A stretch of 32,146 nucleotides of DNA from Myxococcales bacterium (GTDB taxonomy: Bacteria; Myxococcota_A; Polyangia; Polyangiales; Polyangiaceae). The position numbers were made by a program, and so were the translations under genes. The notes beneath the pieces are model-generated. The model was not told where the DNA came from. It saw only the letters and a list, made by a program, of their open reading frames with translations, and made no database searches. Positions 23,854-30,052 of this stretch are shown in pieces (position 1 is the stretch's first letter; every line of letters starts with the position of its first letter). The stretch spans positions 1-32,146 of the forward strand of contig JAAFHV010000091.1 of NCBI GenBank assembly GCA_013297655.1, in the 5' to 3' direction.

Positions 23854-24522
23854 TCACGGCGTGGTCGGCGCGGGATCGAGGAGCGTGCTCCGGTAGATCG
23901 CGAGATCGCCCGAAGGCGCCGCGGCGAGGGTGAGCCACGGCCGCGGGGGGAGCGGCAAGTCGACGCAGCAGACACGGATCGGCCGCGTGCGCGCGATGGG
24001 CTCGAGGTCCTCGAGGACCTTCTCCAAGCGATCGCCACTGAACGGGCAATAGAGGAAAAAAACCGAGCCGATCGTGATGTGCCCGGCCAGGCGCGCCGCG
24101 TCGCCTTCGATCACCGAGAAGCGCATCACGTTGAGTCGGCTCGTCAGATTTCGGGCGGCGCGCACGAGCTCCGGCTGAATTTCGAGGCCGATCGTGGCCG
24201 CGCCCGTCAAGAGGTGCATCACCGCCGCGGCGCGCCCCACCCCGGAGCCGAGATCGACGAACACGTCCGAGTCACGAACGTCGGCGTCGTCGGCGATCCG
24301 CAGGAGCGCATCCACCGAGCACGGCATGTACGGCACGCACCCACGGGGTAGGTGTGGCCCGTCCTCCGGGATCGTGTCGAGGCCGAAGAGCCAATCGAGC
24401 CACGCGTCGCGGTCCGCCGGCGGCACCGCGGTGAGCGCGGCGCGGAACACGGCGGGCGTCACCTCCGCGGCGAGGATCCGTTCGCGCATCCGCTCGGCGC
24501 TCTCGCGGTGGCTCTCGTCCAA
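23854..24522 (-). CDS. Class I SAM-dependent methyltransferase-like protein
   Basis: 222 residues. A helical N-terminal part (about 1-60) leads to PRGCVPYMPCSVDALLRI and then the Rossmann motif I DVFVDLGSGVGRAAAV (SAM binding), with EIQPELVRAARN as motif II and VIEGDAARL after it. The strand VFFLYCPFSGDRLEKVLEDL follows, then a closing beta hairpin. This order fits methyltransferases related to the histone methyltransferase DOT1 fold, but the substrate is unknown. The first in-frame start is TTG (24522); an ATG at 24489 is an alternative that would drop 11 residues. It converges on rseP with 29 bp between stops. Confidence 0.85.
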   Translation of the reverse strand: MDESHRESAERMRERILAAEVTPAVFRAALTAVPPADRDAWLDWLFGLDTIPEDGPHLPRGCVPYMPCSVDALLRIADDADVRDSDVFVDLGSGVGRAAAVMHLLTGAATIGLEIQPELVRAARNLTSRLNVMRFSVIEGDAARLAGHITIGSVFFLYCPFSGDRLEKVLEDLEPIARTRPIRVCCVDLPLPPRPWLTLAAAPSGDLAIYRSTLLDPAPTTP

Positions 24523-24676: not shown

Positions 24677-25921
24677 TCACGCGAGCTTCGCGGCCTGGGT
24701 GAGCAGGTACTCGCGCTCGGCGGTGCTCGTGGTTCGTTCGGCGGCGCGGAGGTACGCGCTCCGTGCCTCGGCGAAGCGCCCCGCGCGCTCGTGGAGGTGC
24801 CCTTGCGCGGCGTCGAGCCGGTGATGGTTACGAAGGCGCGGATCGACGGCGAGGCGGTCGATTTGGGCGAGGCCGGCGTCGGGGCCTTGCACCATCGCGA
24901 GCGCGATCGCGCGGCTCAGGGCCGCCATCGGGTTGTCCGTCATGCGCAGCAGCACATCGTAAAGCGAGAGGATTTGTGGCCAGTCCGTCTCGTCCACGTG
25001 CGCCGCCTCGTCGTGGAGCGCCGCGATCGCGGCCTGGAGCTGGTACGGCCCCACGGCTCCACGCGGCAGCGCCCGCGAGACGAGCGCGACGCCCTCCTCG
25101 ATCGCCGCGCGATCCCAGCGCGTGCGATCCTGGAGGTCGAGCGGCACGAGCTCCCCGGCGGGGCCCGTCCGCGAAAGCCGCCGCGCGTCGGTGAGGAGCA
25201 TGAGCGCGAGCAGCCCCTCCACCTCCGCGTGATCCGGGACCAGGCGATGGAGCATGCGCGCGAGGCGAATGGCCTCCGCCGAGAGATCGGTCCGAACGAG
25301 ATCGTCTCCCGACGACGCGGTGTAGCCCTCGCTGAACACGAGGTAGAGCACGTGCATCACCGCCCCGAGGCGCGCGTTTCGCTCGGCGAGGGAAGGGGTC
25401 GCGAACGGAGCCGGCGTGTCCTTCAAGGTCTGCTTCGCGCGGCTCACCCGTTGCGCCATCGTCGCTTCGGGCACCAAGAACGCGCGCGCGATTTCGCCGG
25501 TCGTGAGCCCGCCGAGGGCGCGAAGCGTGAGCGCGACCGACGACGACGTGGAGAGGGCGGGGTGGCAGCACGTAAAGAGCAACTCGAGCGTGTCGTCGCG
25601 GCCGTCGAAGTCGCCGACCTCGTCGTCCGCCGCGAGCGCGAGCTGGTCCTCTGGCGGCACGAGGCTCACCACCAACGCCTCGCGTCTTCGCCGCGCGATG
25701 TCCGCGCGCACCTCGTCCGCGACGCGACGCGACGCCACGTGCACGAGCCAGCCGCGCGGGTTGTCCGGGATCCCGTCCCGCTCCCACTGCGTCGCCGCCG
25801 CGATGAGCGCCTCTTGGACCGCGTCCTCTGCGGCGGAGAACGCGCGGTAGCGTCGCACCATCGCGCCGAGCACCTCGGGGGTGAGGTCGCGGAGCAGGCG
25901 CTGGACGCGAGGGGAGGCCAA
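24677..25921 (-). CDS. ECF42-type RNA polymerase sigma factor with C-terminal extension
   Basis: 414 residues. Sigma region 2 is at about 15-80 (YRAFSAAEDAVQEALIAA, then GIPDNPRGWLVHVASRRVAD). Region 4 is at about 128-167 (LRALGGLTTGEIARAFLVPE, then AQRVSRAKQTLK). The long C-terminal domain (about 180-414; VLYLVFSEGYTAS and several TPR-like helices) is the mark of the ECF42 group (DUF6596), where it takes the place of an anti-sigma factor. ECF42 genes are known to sit beside YCII/DGPF genes, as here, with 5 bp between the YCII stop and a TTG start. The signal and target genes cannot be read from sequence. Confidence 0.93.
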   Translation of the reverse strand: MASPRVQRLLRDLTPEVLGAMVRRYRAFSAAEDAVQEALIAAATQWERDGIPDNPRGWLVHVASRRVADEVRADIARRRREALVVSLVPPEDQLALAADDEVGDFDGRDDTLELLFTCCHPALSTSSSVALTLRALGGLTTGEIARAFLVPEATMAQRVSRAKQTLKDTPAPFATPSLAERNARLGAVMHVLYLVFSEGYTASSGDDLVRTDLSAEAIRLARMLHRLVPDHAEVEGLLALMLLTDARRLSRTGPAGELVPLDLQDRTRWDRAAIEEGVALVSRALPRGAVGPYQLQAAIAALHDEAAHVDETDWPQILSLYDVLLRMTDNPMAALSRAIALAMVQGPDAGLAQIDRLAVDPRLRNHHRLDAAQGHLHERAGRFAEARSAYLRAAERTTSTAEREYLLTQAAKLA

Positions 25922-25926
25922 CGCGC

Positions 25927-26322
25927 TCAGCCGTATTCTTTCGGCGGCGCGCTCATCACCTGCCGCACTTCGATCGCGAGGTTCAGCGGCGCCCCGTCTT
26001 TCCCGGGCGCGGCGGAGGCCTGCGCCGCGATCGCGTAGGCGCGCTCCGGTGTGTCCACGTCGACGATCCAGTAGCCGGCGAGGAACTCCTTCGTCTCGGG
26101 GAACACGCCGTCGGTGATCGGCCTCCCGTCCGCGCCGGCGCGGACGAGCTTCGCCTGATCGGGGCCGGCGAGGCCCTCCGCTCCCACGAGCTCTCCCTTC
26201 TCGCCGAGCTCGGTCGCGAAGGCCTTCATGAACCCGATGTGGGCCTGGATCGCCTCCTTCGGCCAGCTCGCGATTTGGTATCCGCCGCGGGAGGGGGTGT
26301 TCATCATCAGCATGAATTTCAT
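25927..26322 (-). CDS. YCII-related (DGPF) domain protein
   Basis: 131 residues with the ferredoxin-like YCII fold: MKFMLMMNTP at the start, a helix with HIGFMKAFATELGEKGELVG, GLAGPDQAKLVR, then the active-site-like ITDGVFPETKEFLAGYWIVD and AYAIAAQASA. These small cytoplasmic proteins are regularly encoded with ECF42 sigma factors and are thought to be their targets or partners; their activity is not known. AAGGAG lies 7 nt before the ATG at 26322. It is the first gene of the pair. Confidence 0.93.
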   Translation of the reverse strand: MKFMLMMNTPSRGGYQIASWPKEAIQAHIGFMKAFATELGEKGELVGAEGLAGPDQAKLVRAGADGRPITDGVFPETKEFLAGYWIVDVDTPERAYAIAAQASAAPGKDGAPLNLAIEVRQVMSAPPKEYG

Positions 26323-26763: not shown

Positions 26764-27111
26764 TCAGCCGACCGAGACTTTCCCGTGGTCGTCGCAGTGG
26801 CCTTCGTGCGCGTGGTGGAGGTGGCCGTCGACGATGTAGTCGGTGTGATCGCCGTGCGCGATCGCGTCGTGGCCGCATGCGGGGCCGTGGGCGTGGTCTT
26901 TCGTGTGGGCGCCGCAGGCGTGCGCGGGGGTGCAGGCGGCGGGGTTCGAGGTGGAGACGTCGAGGGTGTGCTCGTCGACGTGATCGCCATGCACGTGATG
27001 AAGGTGGCCGTCGTGGAGGTAGTCCTTGTGGCCGTCGTGCTCGACGGTCTTGTGGCCGCAGCCCGGTCCGTGGGTGTGCTCGTGGTTCGCGTGCGTGGCG
27101 TGGTCGCTCAT
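26764..27111 (-). CDS. His-rich metal-binding protein with two repeats
   Basis: 115 residues, about a quarter His, with no signal peptide, so probably cytoplasmic. It is built from two similar units of about 37 residues: HTHGPGCGH, then a HDGHKDYLHDGHLHHVHGDH block (about 12-48), and HAHGPACGH, then HGDHTDYIVDGHLHHAHEGH (about 72-110). The linker holds CTPAHACGAH. The many His and the paired Cys should bind several zinc, nickel or similar ions, giving a storage, buffering or chaperone role. AAAGGAG precedes the ATG by about 9 nt. It lies 22 bp after the zinc-sensing repressor and is surely in the same unit, so its supply should rise with metal excess. Confidence 0.85.
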   Translation of the reverse strand: MSDHATHANHEHTHGPGCGHKTVEHDGHKDYLHDGHLHHVHGDHVDEHTLDVSTSNPAACTPAHACGAHTKDHAHGPACGHDAIAHGDHTDYIVDGHLHHAHEGHCDDHGKVSVG

Positions 27112-27133
27112 GGTCGAGGCTCCTTTGGTGGTT

Positions 27134-27574
27134 TCACTCGTCGTCTTCGTGCTCGTGCTCGTGCGCGTGCGCGTCCTCGTGCGCGTGCGCCGGCTCTGCG
27201 GCGTGCTCGATCGCGCTCCGCAAGAGCTCCACGATGTGGCTATCGGCCAAGCCGTAAAAAATGTGTTTTCCCGCGCGTCTCCGCGTGACGATGCGCTCGG
27301 CCCGCAAGATGCGAAGCTGCTGCGACACGGTGGAGAGGCCCACCCCTGCGGCTTCGGCGAGCTCCGTCACACACCACTCGCCGTCGGCGAGCCGATCGAG
27401 GAGCTTGAGCCTCGCGACCTCCCCCGCCGCTCGAAAGAGCGCCGCCGCGCGCTCGAGCTGCTCTTCCGTCGCGCGACCTTCACGCGCGCGGCGGGCATGC
27501 TCTTCGGGGCCACAAACGCTGCGCTCGCCTTTGTCCTCGATCCGCGCCGGCTTTTTAGCTTCGGCTTTTCTCAT
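27134..27574 (-). CDS. ArsR/SmtB-family zinc-sensing repressor
   Basis: 146 residues. The winged HTH spans about 42-108 (CVTELAEAAGVGLSTVSQQL is the recognition part). The alpha5 helix carries D111, H113, H124 and E127 (DSH, 11 residues, then HAAE), the spacing of the zinc site of SmtB, CzrA and ZiaR. An N-terminal CGPEEH may add ligands, and the C-terminus is a His-rich tail (about 130-143) that could also bind metal. Metal binding should release DNA. The start at 27574 gives GGTGA at a usual distance; the ATG at 27577 is next to it, and the longer frame to 27742 is rejected. It leads the unit with the His-rich protein. Confidence 0.93.
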   Translation of the reverse strand: MRKAEAKKPARIEDKGERSVCGPEEHARRAREGRATEEQLERAAALFRAAGEVARLKLLDRLADGEWCVTELAEAAGVGLSTVSQQLRILRAERIVTRRRAGKHIFYGLADSHIVELLRSAIEHAAEPAHAHEDAHAHEHEHEDDE

Positions 27575-27576
27575 CA

Positions 27577-27625
27577 TCAATTCACCGATTATTGAAGTGA
27601 TAGAGGGATGGGCCCTGCGTGTCAA
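27577..27625 (-). promoter_or_regulatory. Promoter and operator of the zinc-sensor unit
   Basis: On the minus strand a perfect TTGACA (27625-27620) is followed after 17 bp by TATCAC (27602-27597). Just downstream, over the likely start of transcription, lie inverted repeats TCAAT/ATTGA (27577-27595) and TTCA/TGAA (27581-27596), A/T-rich as in SmtB-type operators. Autorepression is the simple reading. Confidence 0.6.
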
Positions 27626-29103: not shown

Positions 29104-30030
29104 TCACGGAAGCGGCGTGCGGGTGGGGCACTCGCCGTCGCCCTGGAAGTCGCCGAGGGTGCGCGCCTGCGACTGCACGTAGTCGAACACGGACACCTTG
29201 CCGTCGCCGTCCTCGTCCTTCACCGCGGTCACGTCGTACGGGCCGGCCGGCTTCTGCGGCAGCGCGGTCGCCAGGTCGCAGAGCTTGAGCTCGGCGAGGG
29301 TGGTCTCCTTGTTGCCGTCCTTGTCGCAGGTCTTGATCCACTCCGCGCGGCGCTCGGTCACCTCCGCGCCCTGCGTCACGTTCGTGAAAAACCAGTGGTC
29401 GCCGTGGATCGTGGGCTTCACCTGCACGGTGCCGCCGGAGGGAACGGCGAAGCCCGGCTGGCCGTCCTCGGTCGCGCACTCGGCGAACGCGGTGCCGGCT
29501 TTGAAGCCCCACTTGAAGGTGTACTTCTCGGCGCCCTTCTCGACCGCCCCCTCGAAGTACACGCTGAAGCCGTCCTTCACCATGAAGTCGACGTCGGCCT
29601 GGCTCGTCGGCGCGAGCGGCTTTGCCCCGGCGCTGGCGTTCGGGAGCGAGAAGCCGAATTTGTCGTAGCGCGCCGCCGCGAGGCCCGGAAACTCCGCGAC
29701 GACGTAGCCCGTGGTGGGCGCGTTCTTCAGGTCGAGCACGTAGCGCGCGTCGCCGGAGGCCGCTTGTTCGCCGGTGTCGGAGCGCTTGGCGACGAGGCTC
29801 GAGATCGAGACGAGGAAGCGGTCGTAGGTGACCTTCCAGCCGTCTTTGACTTGCTCCGGCTCGGTGCCCGGCTCGAGGCCCTCGGGCACCGAGTCCTCCG
29901 GGACAACCACGAACTGCGCGGTGCCGGTTCCAGCGGGCTGGGTGCCACCCTCGTCGCTGCACGCGCCGAGGACGAAGATGGACAAAGGGAGGGCGAGGCC
30001 GAGCCCCGCGAGGACGGTTCTTGAGTTCAT
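29104..30030 (-). CDS. Lipoprotein with two EF-hand-like loops
   Basis: 308 residues. MNSRTVLAGLGLALPLSIFV leads to the lipobox LGAC (C24). A beta-rich domain follows (about 60-230; VTYDRFLVSISSLVA, FSVYFEGAVEKGAEKYTFKW, HGDHWFFTN). Near the C-terminus are two calcium-type loops: DKDGNKETTLAE (236-247) and DEDGDGKVSVFD (272-283), and four Cys. It is the third gene of the TonB-receptor operon, 22 bp after the second lipoprotein, to which its middle domain seems related. A role in metal or calcium-linked uptake at the outer membrane is plausible but unproven. Confidence 0.8.
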   Translation of the reverse strand: MNSRTVLAGLGLALPLSIFVLGACSDEGGTQPAGTGTAQFVVVPEDSVPEGLEPGTEPEQVKDGWKVTYDRFLVSISSLVAKRSDTGEQAASGDARYVLDLKNAPTTGYVVAEFPGLAAARYDKFGFSLPNASAGAKPLAPTSQADVDFMVKDGFSVYFEGAVEKGAEKYTFKWGFKAGTAFAECATEDGQPGFAVPSGGTVQVKPTIHGDHWFFTNVTQGAEVTERRAEWIKTCDKDGNKETTLAELKLCDLATALPQKPAGPYDVTAVKDEDGDGKVSVFDYVQSQARTLGDFQGDGECPTRTPLP

Positions 30031-30052
30031 GAAGTGTCTCTCTCTCTGGAGG

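Follow-up and report, generated by a model that had tools for sequence, protein, structure and literature searches.

What would a zinc sensor accomplish by governing a small histidine-rich protein, with no transporter gene beside the pair? The question is raised by a stretch of DNA of 32,146 nucleotides from a soil bacterium (the window), in which an ArsR/SmtB-family repressor gene (27134..27577, minus strand) is followed downstream, after 22 nt and on the same strand, by a gene for a His-rich protein of 115 residues (26764..27111). Cytosolic zinc storage and trafficking in bacteria are still under debate, the best-known candidates being Cys-rich metallothioneins and COG0523 GTPases, and the His-rich protein is a concrete, easily tested candidate for this kind of zinc handling. 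The original prediction had an SmtB-type sensor control a protein described as almost a pure metal sponge, and proposed buffering rather than export as the response. The sensor and its control of the His-rich gene are retained here, but neither the pure sponge nor the idea that buffering takes the place of export; the locus is, in our judgment, probably an SmtB-type zinc-excess switch for a folded cytosolic protein that buffers zinc or hands it on, together with a CDF exporter encoded in trans.

The sensor and its partner gene

The pairing of a repressor with a two-repeat His-rich protein is real, as both open frames, their order and the alpha5 metal site of the repressor were found. A Shine-Dalgarno-like AAAGGAG (27120..27126, minus strand) lies 5' of the ATG of the second, His-rich gene, and we infer that the two genes are cotranscribed. 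The repressor frame encodes 147 residues from an ATG at 27577, or 146 from the alternative ATG at 27574. The sensor belongs to a known family: it scored 77.2 bits against the ArsR/SmtB metalloregulator model NF033788 of NCBIfam (cut-off 55) and 42.9 bits against PF01022 (cut-off 22), and its closest match in the PDB was SmtB (E 5e-19). Alignment to SmtB (1r1t) identified the four alpha5 ligands, on the minus strand, as D112 (27242..27244), H114 (27236..27238), H125 (27203..27205) and E128 (27194..27196), which become D111, H113, H124 and E127 when numbered from the next ATG. Across an alignment of 48 repressors, i.e., the window's and 47 others that include its own copy (L001) and some near-duplicates, the Asp and both His residues were constant in 48/48 rows, with Glu in 42 and His in 6 at the fourth position; the D-x-H ... 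H-x-x-E site of SmtB type is thus intact, as anticipated. The SmtB-type alpha3N motif combines an N-terminal Cys and His with Cys-x2-Asp in the recognition region, and its candidate residues in the window's repressor are C22, H27, C69 and E72. Cys22 was found in 34 and Cys69 in 43 of the 48 rows, while the Asp of this motif is mostly replaced by Glu.

Alpha5 sites of ArsR proteins can sense Zn, Co, Ni or Cd, and His-rich stretches often bind Ni. With NmtR also among the top PDB matches of the repressor, the metal might be nickel or cobalt, perceived by an NmtR/DmeR-like sensor, kept in a His-rich store and exported by a DmeF-like CDF. We regard this as improbable, given that SmtB is the closest PDB match and has the same D/H/H/E residues.

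The repressor does carry a His-rich C-terminal tail of its own (27137..27193, minus strand), with 6 His in 19 residues, which might, as first suggested, take metal from the His-rich protein, but this tail is no general feature of the family. A marked tail, with 3 to 6 His, is limited to the window, its nearest relatives and one genome of the same order: the window's repressor has 6 His, those of L029-L032 and L036 have 3-4 and that of L022 (same order) has 3, against 0-2 elsewhere where the tail was readable. At E ≤ 1e-5, the window's genome contains a single repressor of this type; a second match, 38% identical, is interrupted by an internal stop.

The same two genes stand together in many other loci. 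Within a set of 104 that includes the window's own copy and near-duplicates (e.g., L005/L047 and L006/L033), a repressor of this type was located no more than 700 bp from the His-rich gene in 47, upstream and on the same strand in 43. On a plasmid from Pediococcus, a Firmicute, the His-rich gene is preceded by an annotated ArsR/SmtB gene, and on a Burkholderiales contig (L048:1561-2304) repressor and His-rich protein are fused in one open frame of 248 residues. Such fusions are not widespread: six of seven read-through loci proved to be tblastn alignments crossing a stop, and L048 is the only single frame.

The arrangement is reminiscent of SmtB-SmtA of Synechococcus, with SmtB-type alpha5 residues, an operator that covers the promoter of the repressor gene itself and, next to that gene, one for a small effector that is likely to bind metal. 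Unlike SmtA, a Cys-rich metallothionein within a divergent smt layout, the effector in the window is His-based, has a predicted beta fold and 5 Cys in 115 residues, and is encoded downstream on the same strand.

As the original prediction stated, no transporter is adjacent; this holds for the five neighbor genes scanned, between 23854 and 30030, among which no transporter was recognized. Their products are a methyltransferase-like protein, a sigma factor, a YCII protein, a GYF_2 protein (a weak match, below cut-off) and one unassigned protein. The methyltransferase-like protein (23854-24522) has a modest DOT1 match (27 bits, cut-off 23), and the sigma factor, which has a DUF6596 domain, is encoded next to the YCII-domain protein on the same strand (24677-26322). 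No COG0523 GTPase, DUF1826 protein, znuABC, HisI, PyrC, ThrRS, DksA or QueD paralogue, or SO_0444 member was found among these scanned neighbors.

A family of two-unit proteins with a predicted beta fold

The His-rich protein is built of two units, in agreement with the first reading of the sequence: residues 10-48 (26968..27084, minus strand) and residues 71-109 (26785..26901, minus strand). Aligned to each other, its halves scored 150, compared to at most 90 in 2000 composition-preserving shuffles; therefore, the likeness of the two units exceeds an effect of composition. With 5 Cys and 28 His among its 115 residues, the protein is not Cys-rich and falls outside the SmtA-type bacterial metallothioneins.

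The family is widespread and unnamed. His-rich matches at E ≤ 1e-6 were present in 23 of 97 related genomes, the window's own included, and at E ≤ 1e-10 a profile matched in 33 of 188 sampled genomes of the phylum, with ten of these matches inside long frames. In the genome collection, 294 stretches fit the search patterns and 265 encode a His-rich relative; the best 80 of these 265, which were retained, belong by their titles to Myxococcota, Proteobacteria, Acidobacteria, Planctomycetota, Nitrospira and others. Relatives also occur on 13 plasmid records, and one viral contig carries a relative (L113). A single-unit version of 48 residues, ending at a TAG, is encoded at G064:C7:108021-108185 (L027) and may be a remnant; the same genome has a full two-unit copy elsewhere.

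To what extent the protein has a defined structure was judged from the closer members, i.e., from an alignment of 66 out of 81 sequences (the window and 65 of the best 80 of 265 loci). The other 65 members are 61 to 78% identical to the window's protein. Among the 115 positions, 39 are invariant, a count that includes M1 although the start codons were chosen by us, and another 21 are nearly invariant; 19 of the 39 are His, and most of the others are Gly, Cys or Asp. Over residues 10-110, none of the 66 rows has an insertion and 63 are free of deletions. Supplied with this alignment, AlphaFold predicted two four-stranded meanders with two-residue turns (strands 21-25, 28-33, 36-41 and 44-48 in the first unit; 82-86, 89-94, 97-102 and 105-111 in the second), with a mean pLDDT of 80.6 and a pTM of 0.73 for the metal-free model; the prediction for residues 1-6 is of low confidence. 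A disordered sponge for any excess divalent metal, devoid of defined structure, would accord with 28 His in 115 residues and with the low-confidence N-terminus. Against it stand the fixed spacing, the invariant positions, a beta prediction of fair confidence and the occurrence of the unit as a terminal domain of permeases, and we consider such a sponge improbable. The spacing, invariance and predicted fold taken together argue for fixed metal sites in a protein that is probably folded, and the description of it as almost a pure metal sponge does not fit them.

No credible match was obtained in Pfam, NCBIfam or PDB sequences, the best E values being 0.041 with the 66 members and 0.18 with the family profile. 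Foldseek searches of the PDB with the model returned no match below E 1.8, and a repeat look likewise returned none. The sole notable fold match, at E ~1e-3, was the BFVD entry A0A5K0U9W0, a giant-virus protein annotated as cation efflux (CDF), which is 27% identical to the model over 93 columns and hints at a CDF fusion. A literature search, conducted mostly outside subscription journals, yielded no description of this His-rich protein within the sources it covered. Identity with Hmz of Cupriavidus metallidurans was considered and rejected, as hmz denotes an RND efflux determinant in the available descriptions. The family hence gives a lead for genes that are now annotated as hypothetical.

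Operator sites at the pair and in trans

Motif search and a matrix located a palindromic operator, TCACTTCAATAATCGGTGAATTGA, at 27577..27600 (minus strand), where it touches the repressor start codon. By eye, a likely sigma-70-like promoter was recognized at 27597..27625 (minus strand), consisting of TTGACA (27620-27625), a 17-nt spacer and TATCAC (27597-27602); near relatives have TTGAC... and TATAAC at this position, and a strict consensus scan for promoters and terminators found nothing. A palindromic operator over the repressor's own promoter, a trait of the ArsR/SmtB family, is thus present as a sequence feature.

When 39 non-redundant promoter regions were subjected to an unsupervised palindrome search, ACAcTtCAacAattgnTGaAgTGt was returned with a likelihood of 355.7, compared to 44.0-55.1 in 20 shuffled sets, and 34 of the 39 regions contained a copy of this palindrome scoring above 10. 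The operator matrix detected 50 sites in 45 of 102 loci, a set that includes some near-duplicates; 49 of these sites lie directly before a repressor or His-rich gene, and the 50th (L065) precedes the more distant repressor of its locus. Shuffled sequence of twice the length contained one site. The matrix was built from 29 sites, so matches before those repressors are expected by construction, and the tests free of its training are the sites before the His-rich gene, the pattern searches of genomes and the shuffles. Among 53 loci without an adjacent repressor, the operator was found directly before the His-rich gene in 7 (scores 17.7 to 30.0; shuffles no higher than 10.3) and was absent from that position in 46. 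Together with the operator at the repressor promoter, these seven sites support the expectation that the sensor controls the His-rich gene, as far as regulatory sequence can indicate. When motifs were sought de novo in 42 non-redundant regions from the 46 operator-less loci, no coherent palindrome emerged; the motif sets scored slightly above shuffles at all four widths (e.g., 51.7 versus 42.3), from more starting seeds. In the five plasmid or viral loci scanned, the Pediococcus pair and L113 included, the matrix found no site (best score 9.5). In some relatives, an exporter gene is divergent from the pair, with the operator in between; it is of P1B-ATPase type in L035, L074 and L106, of SO_0444 permease type in L065 and permease-like, without an assignment, in L033 and L047. 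In the window, a weaker operator-like match (30014-30037, score 17.4) over the start of the gene at 29104-30030 may be due to chance, as one site scoring at least 16 was seen in about 1.9 Mb of shuffled sequence.

Whole genomes were searched with a strict operator pattern, allowing up to one mismatch and using the reversed pattern as a control. In the window's 9.9-Mb genome, the pattern occurred in three places, all free of mismatches on at least one strand, and the control in none. Besides this operon, the places are the start of a CDF gene on contig C514 and a position on contig C404. On C514, the operator (85935-85958) lies across the start of the gene for a CDF exporter of 353 residues, in the same layout as in the window. 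This protein exceeded the CDF superfamily cut-off, and its best substrate-named model was zinc ZitB, at 224.9 bits (cut-off 408); against the DmeF model, it scored 111.6 bits (cut-off 250). In total, five matches to the CDF family and three to the FUR family were counted in the genome. Eight other genomes were searched as well, and in the one of L036 a second perfect operator site is located before a different CDF that is 34% identical to the C514 protein and scored 200.9 bits against ZitB, below the cut-off and above its DmeF score. The models do not fix the substrate of these transporters, as both are below the equivalog cut-offs; the weak DmeF match could be taken in favor of nickel or cobalt, while the higher ZitB scores of both CDFs speak against those metals.

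Four of five nearest relatives searched (L029-L032) have one operator site each. Of 22 further relatives that carry the family, 11 matched the pattern, and none of the extra sites inspected in these 22 was obviously before a CDF; the reversed control matched in one of the eight and two of the 22 other genomes. The link between operator and CDF is therefore evident in two genomes, but a general rule is unproven. Because the same operator stands at a CDF elsewhere in the window's genome, as it does before the CDF of L036, the lack of a neighboring transporter does not imply buffering instead of export. At the level of sequence, the original proposal of the former at the expense of the latter can thus be set aside, and export is probably part of the response.

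An SmtB repressor over a CDF already has a precedent: according to the available part of a report on Mycobacterium smegmatis, SmtB controls the CDF zinc exporter ZitA, smtB and zur share an operon, and no SmtB site was established conclusively by FIMO (PMC7174638). The present system shares with it the SmtB-type repressor and the CDF exporter, and departs from that account in that the repressor sits with a His-rich gene and the operator is conserved (PMC7174638). What is new is the partner, a conserved His-based family without a model in the searched libraries, its tie to SmtB-type sensors through the operator and its fusion to ZnuB-type permeases.

We propose that at low zinc an SmtB-type dimer would occupy the palindrome that spans its promoter and start codon, keeping the operon off. 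As zinc rises, the alpha5 site would fill, perhaps along with the SmtB-like alpha3N Cys site, and the repressor would leave the DNA. The His-rich protein and, in trans, the CDF exporter with the same operator would then be made; an ECF sigma-like factor encoded convergently with a P1B-ATPase gene may also be induced. As a folded two-lobed module, the His-rich protein would bind zinc via positionally fixed His, Cys and Asp residues, buffer it in the cytosol and pass it along, probably where transporters face the cell interior.

The ECF sigma-like frame is on contig C404, where a strong operator copy (G000:C404:2323-2346; L125, L126) lies about 20 nt before it; the P1B-ATPase gene is cut by the contig start. 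The sigma-like protein scores below curated cut-offs, and its Cys-rich end is, we presume, reminiscent of metal-sensing CorE-type sigma factors. The target of this operator could equally be a plus-strand frame on its other side. Among the 22 relatives, one operator (L157:1501-1524) lies between a TonB-dependent receptor-like gene (Plug, TonB_C) and a divergent frame that appears Fur-family-like by eye; the other extra sites scoring at least 16, in L153 and L150, precede frames without an assignment.

Neighborhoods, permease fusions and the metal

Ten long frames (349 to 527 residues), all from one family of the same phylum, contain the His-rich unit, and all six of these that were inspected (L162-L167) are ABC-3 permeases of ZnuB type that carry the unit once or twice at their C-terminus. 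Mn and Fe are also possible substrates of ABC-3 permeases. Genes of known zinc systems are found near the His-rich gene as well. Within the surrounding DNA (up to 12 kb) of 80 named loci, Zur-type genes were present in 17, of which 7 have an adjacent repressor and 10 do not; the genes seen are those of ZigA/COG0523 (ZigA above its cut-off in L053), DUF1826, ZnuA/B, HisI, ThrRS, PyrC, DksA, QueD and FUR. A P1B-ATPase, SO_0444-type or related gene was present in 11 of the 80, counting L033 and L047, whose permease-like genes include one, in L033, that matched no family. The SO_0444 family of Cu/Zn exporters is represented close to the His-rich gene in L045 (above the NCBIfam cut-off) and in L055 and L065 (below it). 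Taken together, the ABC-3 fusions, Zur-type genes and exporters point to zinc as the metal, with import and export both represented. The fusions and the nearby ZigA, DUF1826, ZnuA/B and SO_0444 genes count further against nickel or cobalt.

Much of this gene set is known from Zur-regulated COG0523 clusters, which comprise a COG0523 GTPase, DUF1826, znuABC and paralogues of HisI, PyrC, ThrRS, DksA and QueD (Haas et al. 2009, PMC2770081). Several loci of the His-rich family lie among these genes, and a small two-unit His-rich protein is absent from the cluster descriptions in the available part of that article (PMC2770081).

Might the His-rich protein then serve chiefly in zinc starvation, as a chaperone or reserve, with SmtB-type control in this lineage as a secondary matter? 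The Zur-type genes in 17 of 80 loci, 10 of them without an adjacent repressor, point in this direction, as do the fusions to ZnuB-type permeases and the position of the His-rich gene after zinc-sparing paralogues, on the same strand, in L051, L059 and L071. Zur-like boxes are plentiful in the loci, with 40 pattern matches, some of them counted for two patterns, whereas a single shuffled set gave 1; in L102, such a box precedes the repressor, and in L060 it precedes dksA, upstream on the same strand. In L053, L088 and L108, on the other hand, the box is 3' of the His-rich gene and precedes the gene that follows, the pair in L053 and L108 is preceded by the SmtB-type operator, and no convincing motif precedes the gene in the operator-less loci. 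A principal role in starvation is accordingly possible but doubtful. The ten Zur-type loci without an adjacent repressor and the box in L102 nonetheless do not fit a role that is purely excess-induced, and some lineages may produce the family's members under excess, others under starvation or at all times. A protein that buffers zinc and hands it on, the role we favor, would fit both settings; a sponge made only in excess would not.

More tentatively, the family may represent a widespread folded zinc module, serving as a cytosolic docking and buffering domain for zinc traffic into and out of the cell: as a separate two-lobed protein under zinc-excess control of SmtB type, alongside exporters, and as the C-terminal domain of ZnuB-type permeases. 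It would then constitute a bacterial zinc store or carrier that is not based on cysteine, and the same domain would sit where zinc crosses the membrane.

The SO_0444-family members in L045, L055 and L065 belong with a Cu/Zn efflux transporter that, in the available part of its description, is under a putative ZntR orthologue in Shewanella (PMC3219624). The count of 11 exporter loci was reached from 17 flagged loci after six from Methyloversatilis were set aside as CcoI-like; the P1B-ATPase beside the gene in L041 has an N-terminus that looks CcoI/FixI-like on reading of the sequence, and the six cluster together.
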